A DNA stretch of 64,000 nucleotides, taken from assembly GCA_013041925.1 (NCBI GenBank), contig JABDRB010000021.1:62001-126000 (forward strand), written 5' to 3'. The stretch is from Akkermansiaceae bacterium. Lineage in GTDB: Bacteria; Verrucomicrobiota; Verrucomicrobiia; Verrucomicrobiales; Akkermansiaceae. Shown here piece by piece: positions 1,668-35,162 of the stretch. Made by a program: the position numbers and the translations under genes. The notes under the pieces were generated by a model. The model did not search any database. It was not told the DNA's origin and saw nothing but the letters and a program-made list of their open reading frames with translations. Each line of letters begins with the position of its first letter. Within the stretch, counting starts at the first letter, position 1.

Positions 1668-3029
1668 TTATTGCGCGTCAGCATCTGATGCGGTGAACCA
1701 ATGCAGCCTGAGCATACTGGGAGCAGGCAGCGGTGGTTGACGTGGGCGATCATGGTTGCGGCCCAACGTTTCCCACTGGAGGATCGAGCGCACGCCCCCC
1801 GCCGCCGTACGGCCGATGTCATTTGTCCGTCGGATCACCATACCTGGAAAATCACTCTGCACCTGGTTCAACGCAGCGGGATACTCCGGGACATGATCGA
1901 TTTTTTGATTGAGCGGTTTCAACGTTTTTTCATCGAAGACTAGGTGACCACTTCCATAATCACGATGGCGATAACGCATCGATAACACCCCAGGCTTCAA
2001 CCGCTTGAATCCACTGATACGGATACCGATAAACCCCATACTACCACGACCACTGAATTTGATCGGCTTGGCCCAGTCGGTCAGAACATGACGCCGCCAC
2101 TGCCCCGCCTCCGGACGCGTGACGTAGATCTGCATATCCCCATTCGCATCAGATTTGTGATAGCTGATCACCGGTTGTTTGTTGATGTCGAAAATAAGTT
2201 TGGCACCACCGTTGATGATACCGCCACCGCTTGGGATGGCATCGACCCAGAGTGCCTTGTTTCCTTGTTTAATCGGGAGGGTCACCATCTGCCCGAAGGC
2301 GGACTCCCAATGCACGAGATCCTTACTCCGCGCGTAGGACAGGTGATGGTTGGTGGCGCAATCCGGTGTGTCTCGCCAGACCCAGAAAGTATGAAACATG
2401 CCGTCAGGACCCAACACAGGCAAACTCGGGTAGGCATTCATTTTCCCCTCTCCGTCAAACAGGGGGGCATCGGTCAGTCGCGACCAACGGCGCGAGTGCG
2501 TGTCATACTTGTTGTAGATGTTGATTCCATTGCCAGCCCCCCCATGGCGGTAAGTGAATACCAGTGTGCCGTTATGATCGGTCATGAAACGTGGATAGGT
2601 CGCCCTGTTTTCCAACTTTCCAGTCATGGAAAACCGCTTCAGGGTGGTGATGTCCCGAGGTTTTTCCGTGCGAAAATAGATCAATTTCACGGCGTGCATA
2701 TTCCCAGACACGTGCAGGTGGCCATCGCGGTCAACCGCCATCGTGATGTAGTTATGCGAGTCCCACCCGACCTTGGTCGGCAGGACCTGAAACTGCCAGG
2801 TTTCTGAATCCACGGTGCGCATGCCAATGGTCATGCGACGTTGGTGGTCGTAGTATGCCACATACTGATGCTGGCCATCCGTCCATAAACAAAAACCAAC
2901 GGGAAAGCCCGCCGGCACCGTGGCGATATCGATTGATTTCTCAAGCTTGAACTGCGATGCGGCAGACGTCTGAGGACACGTGGCTACCACCACCAGCACA
3001 GCAACAACGAGAGATATCATCACATTCAT
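1668..3029 (-). CDS. Secreted BNR_4-type beta-propeller protein (putative polysaccharide lyase/glycosidase)
   Basis: This protein of about 453 residues has an N-terminal hydrophobic stretch (MISLVVAVLVVVATCPQTSAA) that fits a Sec signal peptide, so it is probably exported. The body shows recurring propeller-like strands with conserved segments such as GWDSHNYITMAVDRDGHLHVSGN, TYPRFM and TYRHGGAG. These resemble the BNR_4 group, which includes PL24/PL25 ulvan lyases and GH145-type enzymes acting on rhamnose-glucuronate linkages. The substrate is not determined by the sequence. A GTG start at 3050 is possible, but the ATG pair at 3032/3029 sits right behind a GAGGTG and gives a better signal peptide. 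It converges on the hisG transcript. Confidence 0.7.
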   Translation of the reverse strand: MNVMISLVVAVLVVVATCPQTSAASQFKLEKSIDIATVPAGFPVGFCLWTDGQHQYVAYYDHQRRMTIGMRTVDSETWQFQVLPTKVGWDSHNYITMAVDRDGHLHVSGNMHAVKLIYFRTEKPRDITTLKRFSMTGKLENRATYPRFMTDHNGTLVFTYRHGGAGNGINIYNKYDTHSRRWSRLTDAPLFDGEGKMNAYPSLPVLGPDGMFHTFWVWRDTPDCATNHHLSYARSKDLVHWESAFGQMVTLPIKQGNKALWVDAIPSGGGIINGGAKLIFDINKQPVISYHKSDANGDMQIYVTRPEAGQWRRHVLTDWAKPIKFSGRGSMGFIGIRISGFKRLKPGVLSMRYRHRDYGSGHLVFDEKTLKPLNQKIDHVPEYPAALNQVQSDFPGMVIRRTNDIGRTAAGGVRSILQWETLGRNHDRPRQPPLPAPSMLRLHWFTASDADAQ

Positions 3030-3120
3030 CATCACCTCTGATACTGCCACCTATAAGGAATCTTTCCAGCATTCTCTCTTTGGAGTTTAAAATTGATCCC
3101 ATCGCGATTACGATCGGTTT

Positions 3121-3915
3121 ATGCCTGCCGACTACCACAGCCACACACCGCTCTGCCATCATGCCGAAGGGACACCGGAGGAATTTGTGCAGGCCGCGAT
3201 CAAGGTAGGCCTGACGGAATGGGGAATCTCCGACCACGCACCGGTGCAGCCAGAACCCTTCGACGACTGGCGGATGTCCACAGATGACTTGCCCGCCTAC
3301 TTTGAGTGGATCGACCGCGCCCGCGCCGAGGCGGGCGGCGCGCTGCCCATCCGTGCGGGGTTGGAATGCGATTGGTTACCAGGCTGCGAGCCGTGGATTG
3401 CATCGCTCGCCGAGAAATACCCATGGGACTACCTGATTGGCTCCGTCCACTATCTCTCCGATTGGGATTTTGATAACCCAGCATGGCTCGAAAAATGGGC
3501 CCAAACCGACGTCGACGACGCATGGCTCCGCTACTGGAAAACCTATACCGAGATGGCGGCCAGCGGTCTCTTCGATATCCTCGCCCACCCAGACCTGATC
3601 AAAAAATTTGCTTATAAACCGACCGGTGACCTGCGCCGATTTTACCAACCCGCCATCGATGCCATCGCCACCGCCGACGGCGCGATCGAACTCAACACCG
3701 CAGGATGGCATAAACCCTGCAAGGAAGCCTACCCTGACATCGACTTTCTCGATCTCGCCCACTCCGCCGGCATCCCACTGGTGATCTCATCCGACGCCCA
3801 CCACCCGGATGAGGTAGCACGCGACTTTGACCAAGCCATTGCGCTGGCCAAACAGGCGGGCTACACCCAAACCCTGTTGCTCAACCAGCACCAACGAAGC
3901 TTCGAGGATCTATAA
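3121..3915 (+). CDS. hisJ: PHP-family histidinol-phosphatase (HisJ/HisK type)
   Basis: The product dephosphorylates L-histidinol phosphate in histidine synthesis, or a similar phosphomonoester. At 264 residues it has PHP metal-binding motifs in order: DYHSHTPLC near residue 4, ISDHA near 36, GLECDW, GSVHYL, DILAHPDLIK, and SSDAHHPDEV near the C-terminus. Together these form the trinuclear metal site of the HisJ/HisK family. The start ATG at 3121 places the HSH motif at the usual distance from the N-terminus. It is separated from hisG by the secreted propeller gene and converges on lgt with a 6-bp overlap of the two 3' ends. Confidence 0.9.
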   Translation: MPADYHSHTPLCHHAEGTPEEFVQAAIKVGLTEWGISDHAPVQPEPFDDWRMSTDDLPAYFEWIDRARAEAGGALPIRAGLECDWLPGCEPWIASLAEKYPWDYLIGSVHYLSDWDFDNPAWLEKWAQTDVDDAWLRYWKTYTEMAASGLFDILAHPDLIKKFAYKPTGDLRRFYQPAIDAIATADGAIELNTAGWHKPCKEAYPDIDFLDLAHSAGIPLVISSDAHHPDEVARDFDQAIALAKQAGYTQTLLLNQHQRSFEDL

Positions 3916-4896
3916 GGCGCCTACCTTTTTGTTTCGCCACAGTGCGAAGCCGATAAAGCCGATGCCTGCAACGATCATAAACGTCGAGTAAAACTGCCCC
4001 TTCGTCAGTGCCCCGATCATGGCGGAGTCGGGTTCACGATAACCTTCCACGACAATCCGAAACACCGCGTAAAACAAGAAAAAGAGACCGGTTAACATGC
4101 CGTGGGGTAATTGGGGAAACCGCACACGTGTCATGATCAGGATGGCAAACAACACCAGCCCTTCTAACAACGCTTCATAAAGCTGTGACGGATGGCGGGC
4201 CAGCAAGTAGCCGCCCAGCGTTTCTCTGAGTTCTGGGTTGTCACGGGCACGGTCGACAATGGCCGCATAATAAACCTCCCCCGCACCCAACTCTGGAGCG
4301 ACCTGCCTACACGCGTAATACGCCTCATGGATCGACGCTTGATCGTATTTCAAATCTTCATGCAGCGATGCGGGAAACTTCACCGCCCAGCTCACCCCGT
4401 GGGCGACCCGACCATACAGCTCACCATTGATAAAGTTTGCCATCCTGACCAAGCCCAGACCGACCGGGGCGACGACACAAAGACCGTCACCGACACCCGT
4501 CCAGGAAACTTTATTTTTTCTCGCATAAACGAGGGTAAAAATCATCAACCCGAGAATGCCGCCATGGCTCGCCATGCCGCCGTCCCAGACGCGAAAAACC
4601 ATTGCGGGGTCGGCCAGTAATGCGTCCCACCCCTTGAAGTTATCTTTAGGGATCTGATAAAAGAGGATATAGCCAAGACGACCGCCGAGAAACACGCCAA
4701 AAAACGCGGCGTAGGCAATGAAATCCGCCACTTTACTCTCGGGGAGGACCCAGAGGTTTTTCCTCGCCTGCCAACGAAGCAGGTAATAACCAAACACAAA
4801 GGCGAGCAGGTATCCTAGGCCATACCAGCGGAGTTTGATGGGCCCTACGACATCCAAGATCACGGGGTCCATGTTGTGAATATAAGTCGCTAACAC
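3910..4896 (-). CDS. lgt: Prolipoprotein diacylglyceryl transferase
   Basis: Lgt is an inner-membrane enzyme that transfers diacylglycerol from phosphatidylglycerol to the lipobox cysteine of prelipoproteins. The 328-residue protein has multiple hydrophobic segments and the family motifs IKLRWYGLGYL near the N-terminus, MASHGGILGLM, the signature GLVRMANFINGELYGR, and HPSQLYEALLEG. A longer periplasmic insertion after the signature (about residues 165-235) is present. The start is GTG at 4896, giving MLATYIHNMDPV, which matches related N-termini better than the internal ATG at 4872. Several lipoproteins in this window would be its substrates, for example the cytochrome c at 35.2 kb and the EEP protein at 49.7 kb. 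Confidence 0.95.
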   Translation of the reverse strand: MLATYIHNMDPVILDVVGPIKLRWYGLGYLLAFVFGYYLLRWQARKNLWVLPESKVADFIAYAAFFGVFLGGRLGYILFYQIPKDNFKGWDALLADPAMVFRVWDGGMASHGGILGLMIFTLVYARKNKVSWTGVGDGLCVVAPVGLGLVRMANFINGELYGRVAHGVSWAVKFPASLHEDLKYDQASIHEAYYACRQVAPELGAGEVYYAAIVDRARDNPELRETLGGYLLARHPSQLYEALLEGLVLFAILIMTRVRFPQLPHGMLTGLFFLFYAVFRIVVEGYREPDSAMIGALTKGQFYSTFMIVAGIGFIGFALWRNKKVGAL

Positions 4897-25727: not shown

Positions 25728-27026
25728 TTAGAAGAAAGCGCCAAAAATCATTCCGCTGATCGTGGCCATCACCACCACGAGCCCGGTAAAAACCAGCGTC
25801 TTGGTCGTGCCCATGACACTCCGGATCACCAACATATTGGGCAAACTGAGTGCCGGCCCCGCCAGCAGCAACGCCAGCGCCGGTCCCTTGCCCATACCAT
25901 TGCCCATCAGCCCCTGAAGAATCGGAACTTCCGTCAACGTGGCAAAATACATAAAGGCGCCGGCAAACGACGCCACAAAGTTCGCACTCCATGAGTTCCC
26001 CCCCACGGCATGAGCAATCCACTCCGAGGGAATCAAGGCCTCGTGACCGACCCGTCCGAGCAGCGCCCCCGCCACCAACACTCCCACCAGCAACAACGGC
26101 ATAATCTGTCGCGCAAACCCCCAGGAGGAAGCAAACCAATCACCCACTTCACCCGACTCCATACTGGTCAACACCGACAACCCAATGACACCCGCCGCAA
26201 ATGCCCACCCCGGCTGCCCAGGAAAAAGAATAGCCAAGACCACCACCGGTAACGCCGCCAGTGACACCTTCCACCATCGCACCCGAAACCAGCCTACCAG
26301 CATCACCCCGAGAGACGCTGCACACACCGCGCCTACCATCCATTTCACCTCATAGACAGCGAACCAAATACCCGCCTCCTCGTCAGGCCGACTCCAGTTC
26401 ACCAACACCAACACCCCCACCATCGAAGCAAAATAAAGTGCATTCTGCCACAGCGGCCGTGACGGTTCCTCATCCCCCATCCCCGCCTGCATCGCCCGCT
26501 CCCGCTGCGCATCCTTGCGGAAAATGACGTCCATCAACACACCAATCACCACACTAAATACCACCGCCCCCACTGCCCGGGCAACCCCCAACTCCCAACC
26601 CAAAATACGCACCGTTAGAATCATCGCCAGCACATTAATCGCCGGGCCCGCATAGAGAAATGCCGTCGCCGGACCCAGTCCCGCCCCCATCCGATAAATC
26701 CCCGCAAAAAGGGGCAAAACCGTGCAGGAGCAAACGGCAAGAACCATACCCGAAACCGAGGCCACTCCATAGGCCAGCACCTTGTTGGCCTTCGCTCCCA
26801 GATACTTCATCACCGAGGCCTGACTCACAAACACGGCAATGGCTCCCGCAATAAAAAAGGCCGGAACCAAACACAGCAACACATGCTCACGCGCATACCA
26901 CTTCGCCAAATACAACGATTCCATCAGCGCATGATCAAATCGCTCCGACCCCACCGGCAGATAGAAAACCCCTAAAAACACCCCCACCATCAAAGCCAGA
27001 GCCTTCCATTCACGTTTCCATTTCAT
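25728..27026 (-). CDS. PF03773-type permease (ArsP/DUF318-like)
   Basis: A 432-residue inner-membrane protein with about ten hydrophobic helices in two related halves. The first half has AVCSCTVLPLFAGIYRMGAGLGPATAFLYAGPAINVLA across the core, and the second half repeats the pattern as FMYFATLTEVPILQGLM and LALLLAGPALSLPNM. The CSC motif in the core is typical and suggests binding of a soft metal or metalloid. The partner genes are arsR (upstream) and a CPKC thioredoxin (downstream). Export of an organoarsenical or other thiophilic ion is inferred from context only. Confidence 0.85.
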   Translation of the reverse strand: MKWKREWKALALMVGVFLGVFYLPVGSERFDHALMESLYLAKWYAREHVLLCLVPAFFIAGAIAVFVSQASVMKYLGAKANKVLAYGVASVSGMVLAVCSCTVLPLFAGIYRMGAGLGPATAFLYAGPAINVLAMILTVRILGWELGVARAVGAVVFSVVIGVLMDVIFRKDAQRERAMQAGMGDEEPSRPLWQNALYFASMVGVLVLVNWSRPDEEAGIWFAVYEVKWMVGAVCAASLGVMLVGWFRVRWWKVSLAALPVVVLAILFPGQPGWAFAAGVIGLSVLTSMESGEVGDWFASSWGFARQIMPLLLVGVLVAGALLGRVGHEALIPSEWIAHAVGGNSWSANFVASFAGAFMYFATLTEVPILQGLMGNGMGKGPALALLLAGPALSLPNMLVIRSVMGTTKTLVFTGLVVVMATISGMIFGAFF

Positions 27027-27035
27027 AGCGACACT

Positions 27036-27347
27036 TTATGGACAACCACAGAACCTTTCCGAGCCTATCACCGATTCGATACAGCTCATAAATTTGAGAA
27101 CACAAGGCACCTTCAACCTGTAAAACACTTTTTTCCCCCGCTTTTCATCCTCCACAATCCCCGCCTGCTTCAACACCGCCAAATGCTTTGAAACCGTGGA
27201 AAAATCCACCCCGACAGCGTCCACAAATTCACACACACAGCGTTCTCCTCCTTCCAACTGCTCAGCCATCCATAACCTCGTCGGATGCGATAACGCTTTT
27301 AACACATTTGCCTTCGCTAAATAGATCTTTTTATCCTTCGCATTCAT
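27036..27347 (-). CDS. ArsR/SmtB-family transcriptional regulator
   Basis: A 103-residue winged-helix repressor that starts MNAKDKKIYLAKANVLKALSHPTRLWMAE. The metal-sensing helix has ERCVCEF (Cys37 and Cys39), like the ELCVCDL motif of ArsR-type sensors, and a further cysteine pair lies at the C-terminus (FCGCP). It ends 10 bp before the permease gene, so ArsR, permease and thioredoxin form one operon. An inverted repeat overlapping a good promoter lies just upstream and is a likely site for autoregulation. The inducing ion is not certain; arsenite is a reasonable guess from the CVC motif. Confidence 0.9.
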   Translation of the reverse strand: MNAKDKKIYLAKANVLKALSHPTRLWMAEQLEGGERCVCEFVDAVGVDFSTVSKHLAVLKQAGIVEDEKRGKKVFYRLKVPCVLKFMSCIESVIGSERFCGCP

Positions 27348-27368
27348 CGTCGTCCCGATCCTTCTTAC

Positions 27369-27401
27369 TTGGCAAAATAGCCAAATGTTCACTCCTGTCA
27401 A
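27369..27401 (-). promoter_or_regulatory. Promoter and inverted-repeat operator of the arsR operon
   Basis: On the reverse strand TTGACA and TATTTT are 16 bp apart, a good sigma-70-like promoter. The -10 box lies within the inverted repeat TTGGC-N6-GCCAA (27369-27384), about 22 bp upstream of the arsR ATG. A repressor bound there would block transcription. Confidence 0.55.
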
Positions 27402-27665
27402 GGATTTCAGATCAGCGCATCATGGCCCACACCACATCACCCGTCGACTAACGAAAGGGGGGAAACCAGCAACAACTCGCGACGGCATCACAAGATCTGC
27501 ATCTTTCGGAACAAGATAGCGGAAGCCAGTCTCGGCATGTCTACCTATTGTGGTTAGGCTGAATAAGCGGGTTCACGGCATTTTTACACGACCATTAACC
27601 CCAACAAACAGCCTCCAACCTCACCAACCCCCAAAAAAACAACGAACCCACTCCCACTACAAACG
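27402..27665. other. Intergenic stretch without recognised features
   Basis: About 260 bp lie between the arsR promoter and the first universal stress gene. I see no open frame with coding character, no tRNA-like structure and no clear hairpin. It presumably carries the promoter of the usp pair. Confidence 0.5.
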
Positions 27666-28574
27666 ATGAAACATTTTAAAAACATGCTCCTCGGCGTCGA
27701 TTTCTCCGACTCCTCAGGCATGGCACTCAAACAAGCTCTCCCACTCGCCGAACAATCCAATGGAAAAATTACCGCCGTCTATGTGGCCGCCCCCGATGAA
27801 GTCGGTGAGTATGAACAATGGTATAAAATCGACCCCAACATCGCCCAAGAAAACCTCTGCGATGGATTGAAAAAATTTGTCGGCCATTATCTCGGCACCT
27901 CAGATCGGGTGGAATGCGAGGTCATTATCGGAGAGCCCTACGATGCCATTACCCACTACATCGAAAACAACGAAACCGACCTCATCGTTATTGGGAGCCG
28001 CGGCAACGACTCGCTGGCGAGGCATACGGGACACTTTGCCACCAAATGTGTGCGCCACTCCCCCATCCCCGTCTTGCTTGTTAGACGACAGGCCAAACAA
28101 TTTTTCAAGCGGGTGACCGCCTGTGTCGATTTCTCCCCAGCCTCGGAGGACGTAATTAAAACCGCCATGCAGGTGGCCTTGGACGAGGAGGCAGAACTTC
28201 ACATTGTCCATGCCGTCACCCCACCATGGCTGAGACCAAGCCACGTGATGTATACCCTCGAACCAATCGAGAGTAAGGACTTCCAGAAAGATTATATCAA
28301 CCTCCTACGCGACAAGTTAGAGGTGACAACATCCAGCATCCTTGATGGGGTCCCCCTTAAAACCACACTCAATGTTTTGGAACACGTCACCCCAGATATG
28401 GCAATCACACAATACCTTGTCGATCACCATTCCGATCTCGTCGTGGTGGGTCGACTGGGACACATCAGGAACATCATCTCACAATGTTTTATCGGCACGA
28501 CGGCCGAAAGATTAATCCGCCATAGCCCATGCTCCGTGTTAACGGTCCCCTGTGACCTCGAAGGATCTTCATAA
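27666..28574 (+). CDS. Universal stress protein with two UspA domains (1)
   Basis: The 302-residue protein holds two tandem Usp domains, about residues 3-142 and 148-297. Each begins with a Walker-like valine/aspartate strand (LGVDFSDSS; ACVDFSPAS). Each ends with the nucleotide-binding loop: VIGSRGNDSLARHTGHFA near 108, and VVVGRLGHIRNIISQCFIG near 258, where the second is less canonical. Such double-domain proteins bind ATP or AMP and help survival under stress or low oxygen. It is followed by a second usp gene 21 bp downstream. Confidence 0.9.
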   Translation: MKHFKNMLLGVDFSDSSGMALKQALPLAEQSNGKITAVYVAAPDEVGEYEQWYKIDPNIAQENLCDGLKKFVGHYLGTSDRVECEVIIGEPYDAITHYIENNETDLIVIGSRGNDSLARHTGHFATKCVRHSPIPVLLVRRQAKQFFKRVTACVDFSPASEDVIKTAMQVALDEEAELHIVHAVTPPWLRPSHVMYTLEPIESKDFQKDYINLLRDKLEVTTSSILDGVPLKTTLNVLEHVTPDMAITQYLVDHHSDLVVVGRLGHIRNIISQCFIGTTAERLIRHSPCSVLTVPCDLEGSS

Positions 28575-28595
28575 AAACCATCACATCCCATAATC

Positions 28596-29501
28596 ATGAA
28601 AACCCACACAAACACGCTCGTCGGTATTGATTATTCAGACAACGGCGTCAACGCACTCCGCGAAGCCGCTCGTGTTGCGCACTGGAACCAAGGAAACCTC
28701 CACGGCTTACACATCATTGAGGACGAGGTTATTTCCCTCTTCCGTGAACAAAAGGATTTCGATGAACTCAAGGTCATGCACACGGCCCTTACGCATTTAA
28801 AAGAATATGTGGAAGACATTCTCGGTCCTGATCACAGCTGCCAGTGTCGACTCCGAGTCGGTCATCCGTTTCACGAAATGCTCGATGAAATCCAATCCCG
28901 TCAGGCTGACCTACTCGTTCTCGGGTCACGGGGGCTTTCTGAAAAAACCCTCCACAACGTTGGATCACTGGCTCAACGATGTGTCCGTAAGGCCCCTACC
29001 CATGTCCTGCTCGTGCGCCAGAAACAAGATTCCCCCTACCAAAATATCATTGCCTGCACAGATTTCTCAAACACCGCCAATCGCGCGGCCCAGATCGCTG
29101 CGGATATGGCCATTCAGGATGGCGCCAGCCTAGAGCTTGTCCACTTTTACACCTATCCCATTTACCCCTATGGGGACGTCCGACTGGATCTCGATCCTGC
29201 TCCCGGCTTCATTGATTCCCTCATGGATAATCAAAAGAAAAAACTGAACCATCTCGCGAACAAGCTCCAGGCATCCCATCCGTCACTCGATATAAAAACC
29301 TCCATCGTTGAAGACTCCATCTCACACGCCATCGGCAATTACATCAAAGATTCTAAAGTCGACTTAGTGGTCTTGGGAACGCGCGGACGAACCGGATTGA
29401 AATCACTTTTTTTGGGAACCAAAGCCGAAAAAATCATCCGCGTGACACCGTGTTCGATTCTAGCCGTGAAGCCAGATGGCTTTCACTACGATCTTTCATA
29501 A
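28596..29501 (+). CDS. Universal stress protein with two UspA domains (2)
   Basis: A second 301-residue double Usp protein. The first domain starts LVGIDYSDNG and ends with VLGSRGLSEKTLHNVGSLAQ. The second starts IACTDFSNTA and ends with VLGTRGRTGLKSLFLGTKAEKI, a full G-2X-G-9X-G-S/T nucleotide-binding motif. The two neighbouring genes differ in detail, so they are older paralogues and not a recent copy. It forms an operon with 27666-28574 and converges on the TIM-barrel gene, with 8 bp between the stops. Confidence 0.9.
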   Translation: MKTHTNTLVGIDYSDNGVNALREAARVAHWNQGNLHGLHIIEDEVISLFREQKDFDELKVMHTALTHLKEYVEDILGPDHSCQCRLRVGHPFHEMLDEIQSRQADLLVLGSRGLSEKTLHNVGSLAQRCVRKAPTHVLLVRQKQDSPYQNIIACTDFSNTANRAAQIAADMAIQDGASLELVHFYTYPIYPYGDVRLDLDPAPGFIDSLMDNQKKKLNHLANKLQASHPSLDIKTSIVEDSISHAIGNYIKDSKVDLVVLGTRGRTGLKSLFLGTKAEKIIRVTPCSILAVKPDGFHYDLS

Positions 29502-29509
29502 CCCCGCCG

Positions 29510-30340
29510 TCATAATGTCATGTGGCTCAGGTAGTCGCGAGCTCCGCGGGCCTCGCTCATGGCCTGATGATAGTTCTCGCCGTGCCGACCTGAAAGCTCG
29601 AGGATCAGAGCACCGCGGAAGTTCCAATGCTCCAGCTGAGACAGCACTTGACGCCAATCGACGTGGCCCTCCCCAGGAGGAAGATGAGCATCGCTGTCGC
29701 CCCGGTTATCGTTGACATGCACCATTCTCAGGTGACTCGAGAGCTTGTGTACCACCGATGCGAGATCGCCCGCGAGATGGGCATGCCCCGTATCCAGACA
29801 GGTTCCCACATTATCACTCTCGGCAGACCCCATGATGTAGAGCATATCTCGGGTTCGTCCAAACAACAGGTGAGGAAGCATGTTTTCCAAAAGCAGAATC
29901 AGGCCAAGTTCATCGCAGCGTTTGGCAACGGTATTGACCGATTCACAAGCACGCTCGAGGTGGTCGTAAAACTCCTCGGCAGGTGGGCGACCTTCTCTTT
30001 CCGGACCAGGATGAAGCACGATGTGTTTGACCCCTAAAGTCGCTGCCGCCTCCGCCGCTTTGATTAATTCCTTCACCGATTTTTTTTTGATCTCATCATC
30101 CAAGGAGGTGATGTCAATATGATCCGCAAAGGGGGCGTGAAAGGAAAAAGGATCGAGTCCCACTTCTCTGATCCTACGGGCGGCGACTTTTACCTTTGCG
30201 TCGTCATGGTAGTCCAGATGCTTAGGAAACGAACACACTTCGATCATGCTGAACCCCCCGTCACGCACAACCTCGAGGATATCGAGGATGTCGGATTGAT
30301 AAAAACAGCCGGTTGATATTCCGATAGGCCAATCGCTCAT
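29510..30340 (-). CDS. Xylose-isomerase/endonuclease IV-like TIM-barrel protein
   Basis: A 276-residue AP_endonuc_2 (PF01261) family protein, annotated generally as sugar phosphate isomerase/epimerase. The metal and substrate ligands are all in place: FHAPFADH, HIVLHPG, LLLENM, CLDTGHAHLAGD, RMVHVNDNRGDSDAHLPPGEGHVDW (split here for the reader as HVNDN and DAHLPPGEG), and the late ILELSG glutamate. The set covers the positions of the nine zinc ligands of endonuclease IV as well as the four used by sugar isomerases, so the motifs alone do not choose between them. Its ATG overlaps the stop of the primase-like gene (ATGA), so translation is likely coupled. Confidence 0.8.
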   Translation of the reverse strand: MSDWPIGISTGCFYQSDILDILEVVRDGGFSMIEVCSFPKHLDYHDDAKVKVAARRIREVGLDPFSFHAPFADHIDITSLDDEIKKKSVKELIKAAEAAATLGVKHIVLHPGPEREGRPPAEEFYDHLERACESVNTVAKRCDELGLILLLENMLPHLLFGRTRDMLYIMGSAESDNVGTCLDTGHAHLAGDLASVVHKLSSHLRMVHVNDNRGDSDAHLPPGEGHVDWRQVLSQLEHWNFRGALILELSGRHGENYHQAMSEARGARDYLSHMTL

Positions 30341-31740
30341 AATAGTGTGTCTTTCTTGGTTGCGGCGAGTCTTTTTCGCCATGGTTTCAGATTACATCCC
30401 TGTGCATTAAAACAAAATCCCTGCTCCTGGGTGGACACGCAGTTGAAGTCCACAGACTCATCCAAACCCGTGGCAATTTGCCCGACAAATAGACGGGTGT
30501 AGAAATCCGCCCGCATTTCCGGAGAGTAAACATTCCAAACGCCGCTCCAGTCGTAACGAGCATCCTTGAAGACCCCCGCAATCATCGCCGCGATCTGGCG
30601 CGGACGTCCACCCAGAGCCAAGAGACATCGAACCACCAGCTTCATACCCGATGGCTTTAATAACAAATCATTCGGGTTCGCTACAATGTATGCCGCACAC
30701 GGTGGTAGATACTCCGTCACCCATGACATATCCAAATCCGTCGTCATCGGTATCTCATCATATTTCTGATGAAATCTCCGCAGAGGTGAATCCATATAGC
30801 GGCTGATCAATCGGCTCATCCCCTCCGACTGCTCGGGAATCCTTACACATGCACGATGCGCCAGCTCTTTGGTTTGATCTGCGGAATTTCTCATTCGTAA
30901 AGCGGTAGGCATGTCAACCTCATGCATCGGAATCGTAAAAATGGGGGGGATCGATTCCGCAATCCCCAAGGCTGCGGCCAAACCGCTTTTCCATGGTTTC
31001 AGATAATGGGTAAATGGCATCCGAATGACCCTTGTCCACAGCGGATCTCCATATTCAGAAATGTCAACCGAGATCATTTCGCGCGATCGGCCACCGCCCC
31101 CTACATTCACCGCTGTCATCTCCACAGGAACTTTACTTTCCGGAGCCGCGAACCTCTTGATCAGATGGGCAAGATATTCCATCACCAGACATAACCCATA
31201 AAAAGGAGGCTCCCATTTTTGAGAATACTCATGGAGTCTCAGCGAACTGAAAGGAATAGGGCTACCTTCGGGAGTATTTTTTGGCATCAATGCGGTAAGT
31301 TGCGCCAGGGCATCGGAATTTTGATCGATCCTCCACACAAAGTGATGCCCTTGACCCGTAAGAAGGTGAAGTGGCCTGATCCCACACTCGAGTAATTCTT
31401 GCTCAATCACATCAATCACAGGTTGTTGCAATGCAAAGGAACGCACAGGGTTCAAGTAACACTCCGCCGGCGAGTCAAAGTTGACATACTCAATATCAAG
31501 ATGCGCCAACAACGATTTTCGATCGAGCAAGGAACGGTCCATATCCCAGTCGTTGTCCATCAATACTGGCAAACGATCCACAGGTTCCATACACCCCGCT
31601 TGGATACGGCACCCATCCGCGTGGGTCACATACACCGCTGTCGCTTCGTCCAGCGTCTCACCGCCCAAAAACTCCAGAAACCTACGGTAAACGTGGGCAT
31701 CTGTATACACTCGGCTTATTGGTTCTTGCATCTGAATCAT
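30337..31740 (-). CDS. Putative PriS-PriL-like primase/polymerase-type protein
   Basis: No standard annotation is recognised. Numbered from ATG 31740 (467 aa), a first half carries the three motif types of archaeo-eukaryotic primases: LDIEY with Asp82/Glu84, LLTGQGHHFVW with His132 about 45 residues later, and MISVDIS with Asp226. The second half resembles the iron-sulfur domain of PriL: LPPC (Cys348), a hydrophobic helical stretch with LALGGRPRQI, FYTRLFVGQIATG, then DFNC (434), GFC (443) and GCN (449). This is inference from motif order and spacing, not from a search. Starts at 31785 and 31731 are also open. The 3' end overlaps the TIM-barrel gene, and dnaJ is divergent upstream. Confidence 0.5.
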   Translation of the reverse strand: MIQMQEPISRVYTDAHVYRRFLEFLGGETLDEATAVYVTHADGCRIQAGCMEPVDRLPVLMDNDWDMDRSLLDRKSLLAHLDIEYVNFDSPAECYLNPVRSFALQQPVIDVIEQELLECGIRPLHLLTGQGHHFVWRIDQNSDALAQLTALMPKNTPEGSPIPFSSLRLHEYSQKWEPPFYGLCLVMEYLAHLIKRFAAPESKVPVEMTAVNVGGGGRSREMISVDISEYGDPLWTRVIRMPFTHYLKPWKSGLAAALGIAESIPPIFTIPMHEVDMPTALRMRNSADQTKELAHRACVRIPEQSEGMSRLISRYMDSPLRRFHQKYDEIPMTTDLDMSWVTEYLPPCAAYIVANPNDLLLKPSGMKLVVRCLLALGGRPRQIAAMIAGVFKDARYDWSGVWNVYSPEMRADFYTRLFVGQIATGLDESVDFNCVSTQEQGFCFNAQGCNLKPWRKRLAATKKDTLL

Positions 31741-31918
31741 GCTTACAATTGCAACATAACCTAGGGCACGCCTCAGCCTCTGCATAACTTGTCACGTTCT
31801 CGGCAGCTCTTGGCAAGACACTCCGCCCAGGACCCATATCAATTGACGCACATCTGCCCTCAAGGGATGCATAGCATTCTCTATCATGCGGCATCATCCT
31901 AGTCTTTACCTCTTTGTT

Positions 31919-32872
31919 ATGAAGTTCCGTGACTATTATCAAACGCTCGACGTCTCCCGTGACGCGAGTCAGACGGAAATCCGCAAAGCCTTCCGTAAAC
32001 TCGCACGCAAGTATCACCCCGATGTCGCCAAGGACCCATCATCGGCCGAAGATCAATTCAAGGAGATCAACGAAGCCTACGAGGTCCTCGGCGATCCAGA
32101 GAAACGTAAGAAATACGATACGCTCGGCCATGATTGGAAACACCGCGAGCAAGGGGCTTCGGGTTCCGCCAGTGCGGCCAGCTTTGACCATCACTTCCAA
32201 GGCACCGGCTTCAGTGATTTTTTCGAGCAAATGTTCAGTTCCGGCGGGTATGGTCAGGCAGCGGATTTGCGTGGATTTGGATCCACATCTTCAGGTCATC
32301 GCAAACCCGTCCCTCAGCGTGGGCACGACACCCATGCCGATATCCTCGTGTCCTTGGATGAGGTCATCCATGGAACAGAACGCGCATTGAGCCTGCGCCA
32401 GATCAATCGCGAAACCGGTGCCAGCGAACTCAAAAAATCGCGCATCCGCATCCCCAAGGGGGTCAACGAGGGGCTCATGATCCGTTGTGCTGGACTCGGA
32501 GAACCTGGCTTCCATGGAGCCCCACCTGGCGACCTCTTTCTCCGTGTCCGCTTGGAAAAACACCCCATCTTCCGTGTCGTCAACGCCAACCTCTATTCCG
32601 ATCTACCACTGGCCCCTTGGGAGGCCATTTTGGGCACGGTGACCACGGTTCCGACACCCGATGGGGAGGTCCGAATCAAGATTCCGCCGATGACGGCGAA
32701 CGGCACAGAACTCAGGATCAAAGGGGAAGGACTGGTTCACGGTGATCAGGCCACCCGAGGCGACCTATACACTGTAGTGCAGATCACCAACCCCATTGCT
32801 CTTTCAGAAAAAGAAAAGGAACTCTGGAAACAACTCGCCGCCGCCTCGTCATTCAACCCCCGAACCCCGTAA
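31919..32872 (+). CDS. cbpA: DnaJ-family co-chaperone of CbpA type
   Basis: A 317-residue J-domain protein that stimulates DnaK and may bind curved DNA, as CbpA does. The J domain (about residues 4-70) has YYQTLDVSRDASQTEIRKAF and the HPD motif in YHPDVAKDP. A glycine/serine-rich linker follows, then two C-terminal substrate-binding domains (RIRIPKGVNEGLMIR; DLYTVVQITNPI). The cysteine zinc-finger of DnaJ is absent, as in CbpA. ATG at 31919 gives the family start MKFRDYYQTL. The cbpM-like gene is 24 bp downstream. Confidence 0.92.
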   Translation: MKFRDYYQTLDVSRDASQTEIRKAFRKLARKYHPDVAKDPSSAEDQFKEINEAYEVLGDPEKRKKYDTLGHDWKHREQGASGSASAASFDHHFQGTGFSDFFEQMFSSGGYGQAADLRGFGSTSSGHRKPVPQRGHDTHADILVSLDEVIHGTERALSLRQINRETGASELKKSRIRIPKGVNEGLMIRCAGLGEPGFHGAPPGDLFLRVRLEKHPIFRVVNANLYSDLPLAPWEAILGTVTTVPTPDGEVRIKIPPMTANGTELRIKGEGLVHGDQATRGDLYTVVQITNPIALSEKEKELWKQLAAASSFNPRTP

Positions 32873-32896
32873 CCCACCCCAGACAATCTCCAAGCC

Positions 32897-33223
32897 ATGA
32901 CCTATTGCTACCAACTCACCCGCATCTCCCGTAGCTCCCGATTCAGAGAACTCATGATCGACCTCAATGAAGCCGCGGAACTCTCCGACCTCCACCCTGA
33001 AATGATCGAGGAGTTCCTCCGTGGATCACTCATCCAAGGATTCAAGGACTCCCATGGTAAAATCTATTTCGATCAAGCTGGTATCTCCCGGCTCCGAAAA
33101 ATCGCCCAGCTTCAGCAACGCGAACACGCCAGCCTTCGAACCATCCGCTACATCATCGGACTTCTGGACTGCCTTGATGCCCGTGAACAAGAACTCCAAA
33201 CCCTGCGAGAGCTTCTCCGTTGA
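32897..33223 (+). CDS. cbpM: CbpM-type chaperone modulator
   Basis: A 108-residue MerR-like helix-turn-helix protein with IDLNEAAELSDLHPEMIEEFLRG and DQAGISRLRKIAQLQ, followed by a predicted helix. In other bacteria CbpM binds the J domain of CbpA and holds it inactive. Its position directly after cbpA supports that role. It is the second gene of the pair. Confidence 0.85.
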   Translation: MTYCYQLTRISRSSRFRELMIDLNEAAELSDLHPEMIEEFLRGSLIQGFKDSHGKIYFDQAGISRLRKIAQLQQREHASLRTIRYIIGLLDCLDAREQELQTLRELLR

Positions 33224-33346
33224 ACCCCGAATCAGGCCCAGTGAACGCAGCCACCTGAATCGTCTCTCTATCGTCTGACCAAAATGTGCATGATACATCA
33301 CAAAATGATCCTAGCGAATTCGCATTTCGTGCCTAGGATGCACGCT

Positions 33347-33646
33347 ATGAACGATGCCCCCATCAGAAAAAAAACGCCTCCCCAACAACGCAACATTCAC
33401 TTCTCCCTCCTCTCTCCGGTCAATAGCCGTGTCTACCTCACGGGGACCTTTAATGGCTGGTCGCCGAACTCCATTGAAATGGAACACACAGGCGACGGAC
33501 ACTTCCAGCAATCGATCGCACTCCCCAAAGGTCGTCATGAATACAAATTCATCGTGAATGACACATGGGTTGCCGACCCCACCTGCCCGCACTGGAAACC
33601 CAACGAACACGGCTCACTCAATAGCGTCATTCATATCCCTCACTAA
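33347..33646 (+). CDS. Stand-alone CBM48/AMPK-type glycogen-binding domain protein
   Basis: A 99-residue protein that is almost a single glycogen-binding domain: NIHFSLLSPVNSRVYLTGTFNGWS, the loop around residues 35-55, and YKFIVNDTWVADPTCP with the two conserved tryptophans. It has no catalytic part. ATG at 33347 (MNDAPIRKK) is chosen; the open frame starts at 33284. It sits 10 bp before glycogen synthase, so it may guide GlgA or another enzyme to glycogen. Confidence 0.85.
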   Translation: MNDAPIRKKTPPQQRNIHFSLLSPVNSRVYLTGTFNGWSPNSIEMEHTGDGHFQQSIALPKGRHEYKFIVNDTWVADPTCPHWKPNEHGSLNSVIHIPH

Positions 33647-33656
33647 ACTTCTTGCC

Positions 33657-35162
33657 ATGGGCACCCCACGTATCCTCATCGTCACCCCAGAAATCAGCTA
33701 TTTGCCAGAGAACCTAGGGAATATGGCACAGCACATGCGCGCCAAGGCAGGCGGACTGGCAGACGTATCCGCCTCCCTGGTCAGCGCCCTCTACCGCATC
33801 GGTGCCGACGTCCATGTCGCCATCCCCAACTACCGGCGCATGTTCAAGATCGAGGCATCCCAACTCATTGAGTCCGAACTCCGCCTCTATCACAGCAAAT
33901 TACCTGATGACCGGATCCATCTCGCTGAAGATCGCACATTCTATTATCGAGACCAAGTCTACAGCTCATACAGTCAGGAAAACCAGCACTCGTCGCTGGT
34001 TTTCCAACGTGAGGTGATCAATAATATCATCCCGCGCGTGCGTCCGGACATCATCCACTGCAATGACTGGATGACTGCGATGATACCCGCGATGGCGAGG
34101 CGCATGGGAATCCCCTCGCTCTTCACCATCCACAACATCCACACCGTCAAATTTCTACTCGAACACATCGAGGCATCAGGCATCGATACGGCCGAGTTTT
34201 GGCAGCATCTCTATTATGAATACCCCCCAGAGAGCTATGAACAGTGCCGATCCAACAACCCCGTCGACATGCTCGCCAGCGGTCTGTTTGCGGCACACTG
34301 GATCAACACCGTAAGCCCTAGTTTCCTCGATGAAATCGTCGAAGGCGAACACGCGGCCATTCCTCCCAGTATCCGCACCGAACTCCAAAACAAACGTCAT
34401 GCCGGCTACGCCTCCGGCATCCTCAACGCCCCCGACCCGAGCTACCATCCAGAATCCGACACGGCCCTCGTATCCAATTACAATTCCGATCACTTTGAGA
34501 AAGAGAAAAGTAAAAACAAAAAAGCCTTTCAAAAGCGTATGCGCCTCGATATCCGGCCAGACGCCCCCCTGTTCTTCTGGCCGTCCCGGCTCGACCCTAT
34601 GCAAAAAGGACCTGAACTTCTTTCTGGGATTCTCACCGAACTGGTTTCGGCCTACAAGGACGATTCGCTTCAGATTGCACTCGTCGCCGATGGCGAATAC
34701 CACGCCATTTTCCAAGATATCATCACCCTCGAAAACCTGCAGGGCTCGGTAAGCATTCAACCCTTTGACGAAAGCCTTTCGCGTCTCGGATTCGCGGCAT
34801 CTGACTTCATGCTGATGCCCTCGAAATTCGAACCCTGCGGACTCACCCAGATGATCGCCTTGAAATACGGCAGCCTCCCCATTGTTCGAGACACCGGCGG
34901 ACTGAAAGATACCGTGTCCCACCTCGATCCCAGTCAAGCACAAGGGAACGGCTTCGTTTTCGAAGACTACGACACGCAAGGGCTGAGATGGGCCATCGAC
35001 TGTGCCATGGACTTTTTCCATCGCCCCTCGAACAAAAAATCAGCTGAGATCCAACGGATCATGGCAGAGGCAACGACCCGCTTCACCCATGAACAAACCG
35101 CTGACCAATACGTCGCACTTTACGAAGAGATGTTAGGACGACCCTTGGAACCTGACGATTAA
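33657..35162 (+). CDS. glgA: Glycogen/starch synthase, GT5
   Basis: A 501-residue ADP-glucose (or UDP-glucose) glucosyltransferase that extends alpha-1,4-glucan. The nucleotide-sugar binding motif is KAGGLADVSASLVSAL near residue 24. The C-terminal GT-B motif has SKFEPCGLTQMIALKYGSLP, where the glutamates are spaced as in retaining GT5 enzymes, then VRDTGGLKDTV. Conserved HCNDWMTAM and FTIHNIHT are also present. ATG at 33657 gives the expected start. It follows the CBM48 gene and converges on a cytochrome gene. Confidence 0.93.
   Translation: MGTPRILIVTPEISYLPENLGNMAQHMRAKAGGLADVSASLVSALYRIGADVHVAIPNYRRMFKIEASQLIESELRLYHSKLPDDRIHLAEDRTFYYRDQVYSSYSQENQHSSLVFQREVINNIIPRVRPDIIHCNDWMTAMIPAMARRMGIPSLFTIHNIHTVKFLLEHIEASGIDTAEFWQHLYYEYPPESYEQCRSNNPVDMLASGLFAAHWINTVSPSFLDEIVEGEHAAIPPSIRTELQNKRHAGYASGILNAPDPSYHPESDTALVSNYNSDHFEKEKSKNKKAFQKRMRLDIRPDAPLFFWPSRLDPMQKGPELLSGILTELVSAYKDDSLQIALVADGEYHAIFQDIITLENLQGSVSIQPFDESLSRLGFAASDFMLMPSKFEPCGLTQMIALKYGSLPIVRDTGGLKDTVSHLDPSQAQGNGFVFEDYDTQGLRWAIDCAMDFFHRPSNKKSAEIQRIMAEATTRFTHEQTADQYVALYEEMLGRPLEPDD

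Follow-up and report, generated by a model that had tools for sequence, protein, structure and literature searches.

The window analysed here, a stretch of 64,000 nucleotides from an Akkermansiaceae bacterium (contig JABDRB010000021.1, positions 62,001 to 126,000 of the forward strand), carries on its minus strand two overlapping genes. The first encodes an archaeo-eukaryotic primase (AEP)-like primase-polymerase (Prim-Pol) and the second an endonuclease IV-like TIM barrel, which we call the partner. On balance we think it probable that the two genes form a chromosomal module for base-excision or gap repair, which acts on abasic (AP) sites and single-strand gaps and works like Prim-PolC with endonuclease IV. 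The best reading of the AEP-like protein is that it represents a separate, unnamed AEP family. Both genes are conserved and under purifying selection, the first product has a predicted Prim-Pol fold with invariant catalytic residues, the second keeps an invariant metal-ligand set, and the pairing of the two is near-obligatory.

We searched 98 related genomes, the window's own included, for the AEP and found 18 to be AEP-positive. A profile scan of genome contigs with a 17-row alignment gave 83 relatives, 80 of which were retained as loci; these loci overlap with the 18 AEP-positive genomes and the two sets are not independent. Conservation counts for both proteins come from a 75-row alignment (A2). 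It omits eight of the 80 loci, namely L021 and L022, duplicates of L002 and L003, and L036, L054, L082, L085, L090 and L092, which were left out because their sequences are broken or cut, and it adds the window, L002 and L003. A further alignment (A4) omits seven members without an intact cysteine tail and four near-duplicates. The tree contains 73 of the 75 A2 rows. The features of the window pair are as follows.

30337..31740, minus strand: AEP-like primase-polymerase gene, first of the pair; open reading frame of 467 residues, Prim-Pol plus PriL-like C-terminal domain
30856..31740, minus strand: catalytic Prim-Pol domain, approximately residues 1-295; LigD polymerase and PriS align in VIA-align within model residues 1-315
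31486..31500, minus strand: motif I, LDIEY (D82, E84)
31333..31356, minus strand: motif II, GQGHHFVW (H133)
31063..31074, minus strand: motif III, ISVD (D226)
30340..30855, minus strand: C-terminal helical domain, PriL iron-sulfur (Fe-S)-like, residues 296-467
30697..30705, minus strand: PPC, which contains the first (C348) of four predicted cluster cysteines
30394..30441, minus strand: C434-x8-C443-x5-C449, distal three predicted cluster cysteines
29510..30340, minus strand: endonuclease IV-like TIM barrel (PF01261), the partner; 276 residues from the ATG at 30340
30337..30340, minus strand: ATGA stop-start overlap in the sequence, AEP stop and partner start

An in-frame ATG upstream at 31785 would lengthen the AEP-like protein to 482 residues. 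The open frame of the partner begins at 30382 (29510-30382, minus strand, 290 residues), and its start is likely the ATG at 30340 (MSDWPIG..., 276 residues). An earlier note on this DNA had reported that the two genes overlap by ATGA; we confirmed this overlap, which suggests translational coupling of the AEP and the partner. Purifying selection was evident from nonsynonymous and synonymous divergence (dN and dS). For the AEP gene dN was 0.027 and dS 0.62 between L073 and L100, and 0.031 and 0.53 between L057 and L058; for the partner, dN was 0.019 and dS 0.97 between L057 and L058.

The AEP-like protein and its cysteine-bearing domain

We found that the three AEP motif types named in the earlier note, LDIEY, GQGHHFVW and ISVD, are present in that order and that D82, H133 and D226 are invariant in all 75 aligned sequences. 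The distance from D82 to H133 is 51 residues, rather than the roughly 45 that had been given for the spacing of motifs I and II. Position 84 of motif I is glutamate in 73 of the 75 sequences and aspartate in two. G129, G131, H133 and W136 of motif II are each kept in 75 of 75, and E229, R237, Y246 and K248 are further invariant residues. Since D82, H133 and D226 do not vary across 75 aligned sequences, the motifs are more than a chance resemblance.

An AlphaFold2 model of the protein had a predicted local distance difference test score (pLDDT) of 86.2 and a predicted template modelling (TM) score (pTM) of 0.90. When this model was compared with solved structures using VIA-align, the closest was Mycobacterium smegmatis Prim-PolC (6sa0_A; Z 16.3, 3.7 Å, 256 residues), and LigD polymerase domains came next (Z 14.2-15.0, with 2fao at 15.0). 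Lower scores were obtained for CRISPR-associated Prim-Pol (CAPP; Z 12.3), archaeal PriS (Z 11.6) and RepB' (Z 8.3). The top 34 rows for the predicted model, at Z ≥ 9.5, were all primase, polymerase alpha-primase or Prim-Pol entries. Structure prediction, which the earlier note had proposed as a check, thus returned a Prim-Pol fold and no unrelated fold. By its motifs and predicted fold the 467-residue protein is a member of the AEP superfamily.

No Pfam or NCBIfam family matched the 467-residue protein at E ≤ 10. PF01896 (PriS) and PF21686 (LigD_Prim-Pol) matched neither the window protein nor the window's own genome, and neither phmmer nor profile A2 found a relative of solved structure. Chains of the lipoprotein BT_2263 and of a sorting nexin, retrieved with profiles A1 and A4 at E 0.55-1.4, were treated as chance matches. 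BFVD matches were scattered over phage or viral primases and unnamed proteins, the best row having E 5.1e-4, with TM-scores of at most 0.31. PHROGs gave a single ten-residue match for the AEP (E 0.14) and none for the partner, and PADLOC gave no match for the AEP.

The earlier note had also described the C-terminal region, in which FYTRLFVGQI lies between PPC and C434-x8-C443-x5-C449, as PriL-like. The cysteine pattern behind this claim held up, being nearly invariant; the likeness to PriL itself was harder to establish. Residues 296-467 modelled alone gave a pLDDT of 92.3, and the best VIA-align row for this model was the human PriL 4Fe-4S domain (3q36_B; Z 5.3, 108 residues; next row 2.5), where a Z below 8 may reflect merely a common arrangement. 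Foldseek placed the same chain at E 8.2. The PriL Fe-S profile PF04104 matched three of the 75 members weakly and below the Pfam cut-off (best E 0.0096), and it matched neither the window protein, nor the window's own genome, nor any of ten isolated C-terminal domains. With no profile match over the cut-off and this Z score the evidence for the PriL assignment is modest, and we consider a PriL origin of the domain plausible.

We found that C348 is a cysteine in 69 of the 75 members. In 67 of these 69 both C434 and C443 are present as well, and so is another cysteine within 12 residues; the exceptions are L065, in which C434 is replaced by serine, and L072, which has lost its tail. None of the six members without C348 has the distal set, as L094, L095, L096 and L099 have no tail cysteine and L087 and L089 have one each. 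These six members occupy at least four places on the tree, and a similar joint loss was read by eye in genome G217. Because the cysteines are present or lost as a set, a four-cysteine metal or Fe-S site in the C-terminal domain is likely on sequence grounds. Conservation among homologues, another check put forward in the earlier note, was therefore borne out over the 75 sequences, in which the cysteines vary little and the Asp and His residues of the motifs not at all.

The partner and its pairing with the AEP gene

The partner is a PF01261 TIM barrel (E 2.3e-44). Nine of its residues, H82, H124, E166, D197, H200, H222, D231, H233 and E262 (290-residue numbering), are invariant in 75 of 75 sequences and align with identical residues of endonuclease 4 chain 5zhz. 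We take these nine to be the ligands of the endonuclease IV trinuclear metal site, and on this ligand list the earlier note was right that the partner keeps the endonuclease IV positions. The best match of solved structure was MJ1311 (3wqo, 1.7e-32), followed by 5zhz (9.3e-14), and many ketose epimerases were also among the matches.

The window's genome contains 13 PF01261 regions, the partner included. NCBIfam was searched with ten of the 12 paralogues at E ≤ 1e-10; the best model was a sugar isomerase, epimerase or dehydratase for seven of them, and three matched none. The nfo model, by comparison, matched the partner alone in this genome. Matches to this model adjoin the AEP gene in 17 of the 18 AEP-positive genomes, and the remaining one, G087, has no nfo-model match at E ≤ 0.001. 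PADLOC matched the partner to PDC-M70B (1.1e-4).

Whether the two genes travel together had been raised in the earlier note. We found a partner match directly downstream of the AEP gene in 77 of the 80 loci, a count that includes a partner fragment (L072), a partner cut by the contig end (L098) and a locus with an interrupted AEP frame (L092). Two of the other three loci, L082 and L090, end at a contig edge, and L069 has room for a partner and lacks one. The partner ATG could be called by script in 58 of the 77 paired loci, and among these 58 the overlap is exactly 4 nucleotides in 31 and 8 nucleotides in ten. The distances among AEP sequences and among partner sequences are correlated (r 0.76 over 70 pairs; reached by none of 1000 permutations), a correlation that shared descent alone can explain. 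In L034 the AEP and the partner lie in one open frame, and the genome search recovered it again with a length of 781 residues. Additional intact pairs were found in G217 and G667.

Two further genomes carry unusual versions of the pair. G062 has two AEP copies (G062:C16 and G062:C8), with an nfo-model match beside each. In G345 (L123) the pair appears to have decayed jointly: the AEP loses its likeness to the family ahead of the tail, and only a fragment of the partner is left; the adjoining open reading frames appeared transposase-like by eye.

Distribution and neighbourhoods

Record titles gave nine phylum labels among the 72 titled tree rows. Verrucomicrobiota accounted for 53, Planctomycetota for six, Acidobacteriota for five, and Thermodesulfobacteriota and Fibrobacterota for two each; Myxococcota, Omnitrophota, Latescibacterota and Gemmatimonadota had one row each. 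Phylum labels of metagenomes are fallible, as illustrated by L034, which is labelled Planctomycetota and nests among Verrucomicrobiota. Members are also present in strains whose records bear no metagenome label (L070, L073 and L100). The family is sparse: in samples of 387 genomes from the window's phylum and 395 from the phylum of L069, at least 10 and at least 9, respectively, gave matches; these counts are lower bounds and include distant AEP kin without a partner.

Two outlying AEP subfamilies were seen. One, of 502 residues, occurs in the phylum sample of L069 (L138 in G592, L139 in G489, L140 in G563 and L141 in G527). It has Asn in place of the motif II His (GQGYNF), keeps the cysteine motifs as judged by eye and adjoins a conserved protein of 393-394 residues, with the partner absent from the fetched stretches. 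The other is a distant AEP-like subfamily of about 430-455 residues (L124 in G145, with two divergent copies, L125 in G133, L142 in G606 and L143 in G847). Its members have D-x-E, a Gly-Gly/Cys-His motif and I/F-D-N as motif III, and showed neither the four-cysteine pattern by eye nor a nuclease partner in the fetched stretches.

The window pair stands isolated between a divergently oriented DnaJ-domain gene at 31886 and a convergent universal stress protein (Usp) gene that ends at 29501. Two tandem Usp genes (27666-29501) adjoin it, and farther neighbours include, besides the second of these, a MerR_2 regulator, a starch synthase, an ArsP permease and an ArsR regulator. Promoter and terminator scans gave signals no higher than those of shuffled sequences. 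Across the loci a Usp cluster was found in 13 of 80, and Usp-like genes also adjoin the pair in the close relatives L021 and L022. An Hsp20 gene lies near the pair in G217. In G667 (L137 5533-6087, by Pfam) an S30AE (ribosome-hibernation) gene that also encodes a cold-shock domain lies upstream and overlaps the frame of the AEP, and in L081 (3-578) a gene that resembles S30AE by eye has the same place. It is only suggested by these neighbours that the pair has a stress or stationary-phase role. Clusters of antisense open reading frames in the neighbour survey were dismissed as frames opposite the pair.

Several loci have recognised or candidate repair genes near the pair. The exceptional L069 has a UDG-superfamily gene (PF03167, 3e-9) in the place of the partner, its frame overlapping that of the AEP, and its 9.1-kb contig also carries two Ku genes side by side and a fragment of a LigD Prim-Pol (2-514 and 2993-4850). 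No strong partner match was found elsewhere in its genome, G460, which may be incomplete (best 1e-15). G460 has, besides L069, a second and distant AEP match. An Fpg gene lies near the pair in L075, and L081 has nearby a second PF01261 gene with what we take to be an endonuclease IV motif. An HHH_8/HHH_5 protein is encoded downstream of the pair in L025 (10940-11794, by Pfam) and, by clustering, in L030, L044 and L061. A cation-transporting P-type ATPase gene is located between the pair and the HHH_8/HHH_5 gene of L025.

Proposed function and comparison with known systems

The gap-repair or base-excision reading is favoured because the mycobacterial LigC system provides a precedent for the two activities. 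Also in its favour are the repair polymerases as nearest structures of the AEP model, the conserved catalytic and ligand residues, the close and partly overlapping pairing of the genes, the fused frame of L034, the joint decay in G345 and the UDG-superfamily gene that stands in for the partner in L069. From the features above we infer polymerase activity, AP-site or 3'-end cleavage, an Fe-S cluster, complex formation and an order of steps. The endonuclease IV-like enzyme would use a three-metal centre to cleave the phosphodiester bond at abasic sites or to clean blocked 3' ends. The coupled Prim-Pol would then fill the short gap after binding to it, and the PriL-like domain, probably bearing an Fe-S cluster, would assist in holding the primer-template or the gap's 5' end. 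The nick would be sealed by a resident cellular ligase. A bolder proposal, to which we give somewhat less than an even chance, is that the pair constitutes an unnamed chromosomal excision-repair pathway of bacteria apart from Ku/LigD and LigC, in which an endonuclease IV-type nuclease and a Prim-Pol with a PriL-type Fe-S domain operate as a unit, perhaps even as a single protein in one genome, to make short patches, perhaps with ribonucleotides, in non-growing cells. If true, this would mean that a primase architecture, catalytic plus Fe-S domain, was recruited for bacterial base excision repair.

Several observations weigh against a repair module. For the partner, the Nfo models scored well below their cut-offs (TIGR00587, 42.4 versus 129.65 bits; NF002198, 43.4 versus 244), the top NCBIfam model was CbiR, a cobamide phosphodiesterase, which was itself under its cut-off (52.5 versus 105 bits), and MJ1311, the nearest solved relative, is listed as uncharacterised. 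Since CbiR and MJ1311 are closest and the Nfo cut-offs are far away, the metal-ligand set is not specific to DNA enzymes. No Nfo that scores above the cut-off occurs in the 18 AEP-positive genomes, and because only 4 of the 98 genomes have one at all this absence is not significant (p = 1). For the AEP, Foldseek with the full-length model gave the same leaders as VIA-align at a weak E of 5e-3. Related AEPs in G592, G489, G563, G527, G606, G847, G145 and G133 lack a partner within the stretches that were fetched, which means that the AEP fold can do without one, and the six of 75 members without the cysteine set still keep their partner. The fusion in L034 is uncertain, as it comes from a single metagenome contig in which one indel error could create it. 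The motif scan recognised a repair gene in just 3 of 80 loci, plus HHH proteins in four, and no ligase or other third gene recurs beside the pair by neighbour clustering, in which no ligase profile was run. Because most neighbourhoods show no recognised repair gene, we treat the repair neighbours as supporting evidence only.

An alternative that we regard as unlikely, although it is the strongest of those considered, is that the AEP re-primes stalled synthesis or carries out translesion synthesis past abasic sites like human PrimPol, and that the TIM barrel processes the lesion later. Motif I of the AEP is D-x-E, as it is in human PrimPol. PriL-type Fe-S domains moreover belong to priming enzymes (PMC3973330, PMC5862659). 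However, the nearest structures are those of the gap-filling Prim-PolC and LigD polymerases, with human PrimPol (7jlg) ranked 25th by Foldseek at E 1.7. Neighbour clustering, with the clusters judged by eye, revealed no recurrent helicase-like third gene, and the loss of the cysteine set with retention of the partner also speaks against restart. We give a slightly smaller chance to a metabolic or signalling pair, in which a TIM barrel of CbiR-like or epimerase-like kind would act on a small molecule, as a phosphodiesterase or sugar isomerase, and the AEP would produce or alter a nucleotide. The CbiR model, the lead of MJ1311 over endonuclease IV and the many ketose epimerase matches all fit such a pair. 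In 77 of the 80 loci, nevertheless, the neighbour of the partner is a protein with a polymerase fold, cobamide genes were absent from the eight scanned window neighbours, and the sole substitute neighbour, in L069, is a UDG-superfamily gene beside Ku and LigD. Taken as a sugar isomerase with no link to DNA, as the earlier note had allowed, the partner is disfavoured.

The two remaining alternatives appear very improbable to us, and to about the same degree. In one, the AEP is a plasmid- or prophage-type replication protein and the partner a passenger. With the window protein as the single query we found no relatives in plasmid and phage records (tblastn), nor in viral contigs searched with a peptide pattern. 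Pfam identified no phage or plasmid gene among the eight window neighbours (25728-35162), which are of the Usp (two genes), DnaJ, MerR_2, starch synthase, ArsP and ArsR kinds, and the tree clusters by phylum label, with 12 changes over nine groups versus 18.7 in shuffles. A role in end joining, with the AEP serving Ku and LigD and the nuclease trimming ends, draws on the contig of L069 and on the enrichment of Ku, present in 9 of 18 AEP-positive versus 6 of 80 AEP-negative genomes (p 8.6e-5, kinship not corrected for). LigD Prim-Pol was similarly found in 10 of the 18 versus 6 of the 80, again with kinship not corrected for. Yet neither Ku nor a LigD Prim-Pol match is present in the window's own genome, which is 98% complete; 8 of the 18 AEP-positive genomes, some of them incomplete, lack both, and in the motif scan of 80 loci Ku was seen in L069 only. 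Because Ku and LigD Prim-Pol are missing from the window's genome, the pair there is probably independent of end joining.

A base-excision or gap-repair module can be compared with several known systems. Prim-PolC, endonuclease IV and LigC reconstitute excision repair; Prim-PolC fills gaps of 1-3 nucleotides with a preference for ribonucleotides, endonuclease IV was the most useful end-processing enzyme in the reconstituted LigC reaction, and expression of the mycobacterial LigC system is highest in early stationary phase (PMC5663958). Prim-PolC is the best structural match of the AEP, and a Prim-Pol of the same fold thus works with endonuclease IV (PMC5663958). Unlike Prim-PolC, the AEP has no sequence match to PF21686 and has an extra PriL-like domain, and its gene is coupled to a nuclease gene, whereas Prim-PolC is described with LigC. 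The partner resembles endonuclease IV (Nfo, PF01261/TIGR00587) in being a TIM barrel with the nine presumed metal-ligand positions, and differs in falling, at the score given above, outside the NCBI-defined subfamily. MJ1311 (3wqo) and CbiR are its nearest solved-structure and NCBIfam relatives. CbiR acts on cobamides (PMC7733943), and the partner lies under the CbiR cut-off. The pair would act like Prim-PolC and endonuclease IV, yet by score it belongs to neither named family.

The earlier note knew no named arrangement with PriS-like and PriL-like parts in one bacterial chain outside an obvious phage or plasmid setting. Such a chain is not unprecedented, as fusions of PriS and PriL are already described for the plasmid protein PolpTN2, Nanoarchaeum equitans and the Bacillus provirus phBC6A51 (PMC3973330). 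The window protein resembles them in carrying, within a single chain, an AEP domain and after it a PriL-like domain with four cysteines. PolpTN2 is plasmid-borne, does not conserve the motif II His and has a PriL-like region that extends over both PriL domains (PMC3973330, PMC5862659). In contrast, the window AEP keeps this His, shows only a part that resembles the C-terminal Fe-S domain of PriL and has a nuclease gene as its partner. Bacterial AEPs with cellular repair roles are also on record, as LigD takes part in end joining and, in mycobacteria, Prim-PolC in excision repair (PMC5862659, PMC5663958), so that neither PriS-PriL fusions nor an AEP in excision repair is new. We found no account of this AEP family or of its pairing with a nuclease in the open-licence PubMed Central literature, and one may be in print elsewhere. 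Compared with the known systems, the pair adds a family for which neither Pfam nor NCBIfam has a model, in which a repair-type Prim-Pol with a PriL-like domain travels with a nuclease-like partner across nine phylum labels. It bears on the origin of the PriS-PriL primase architecture and offers a directly testable two-protein repair system.

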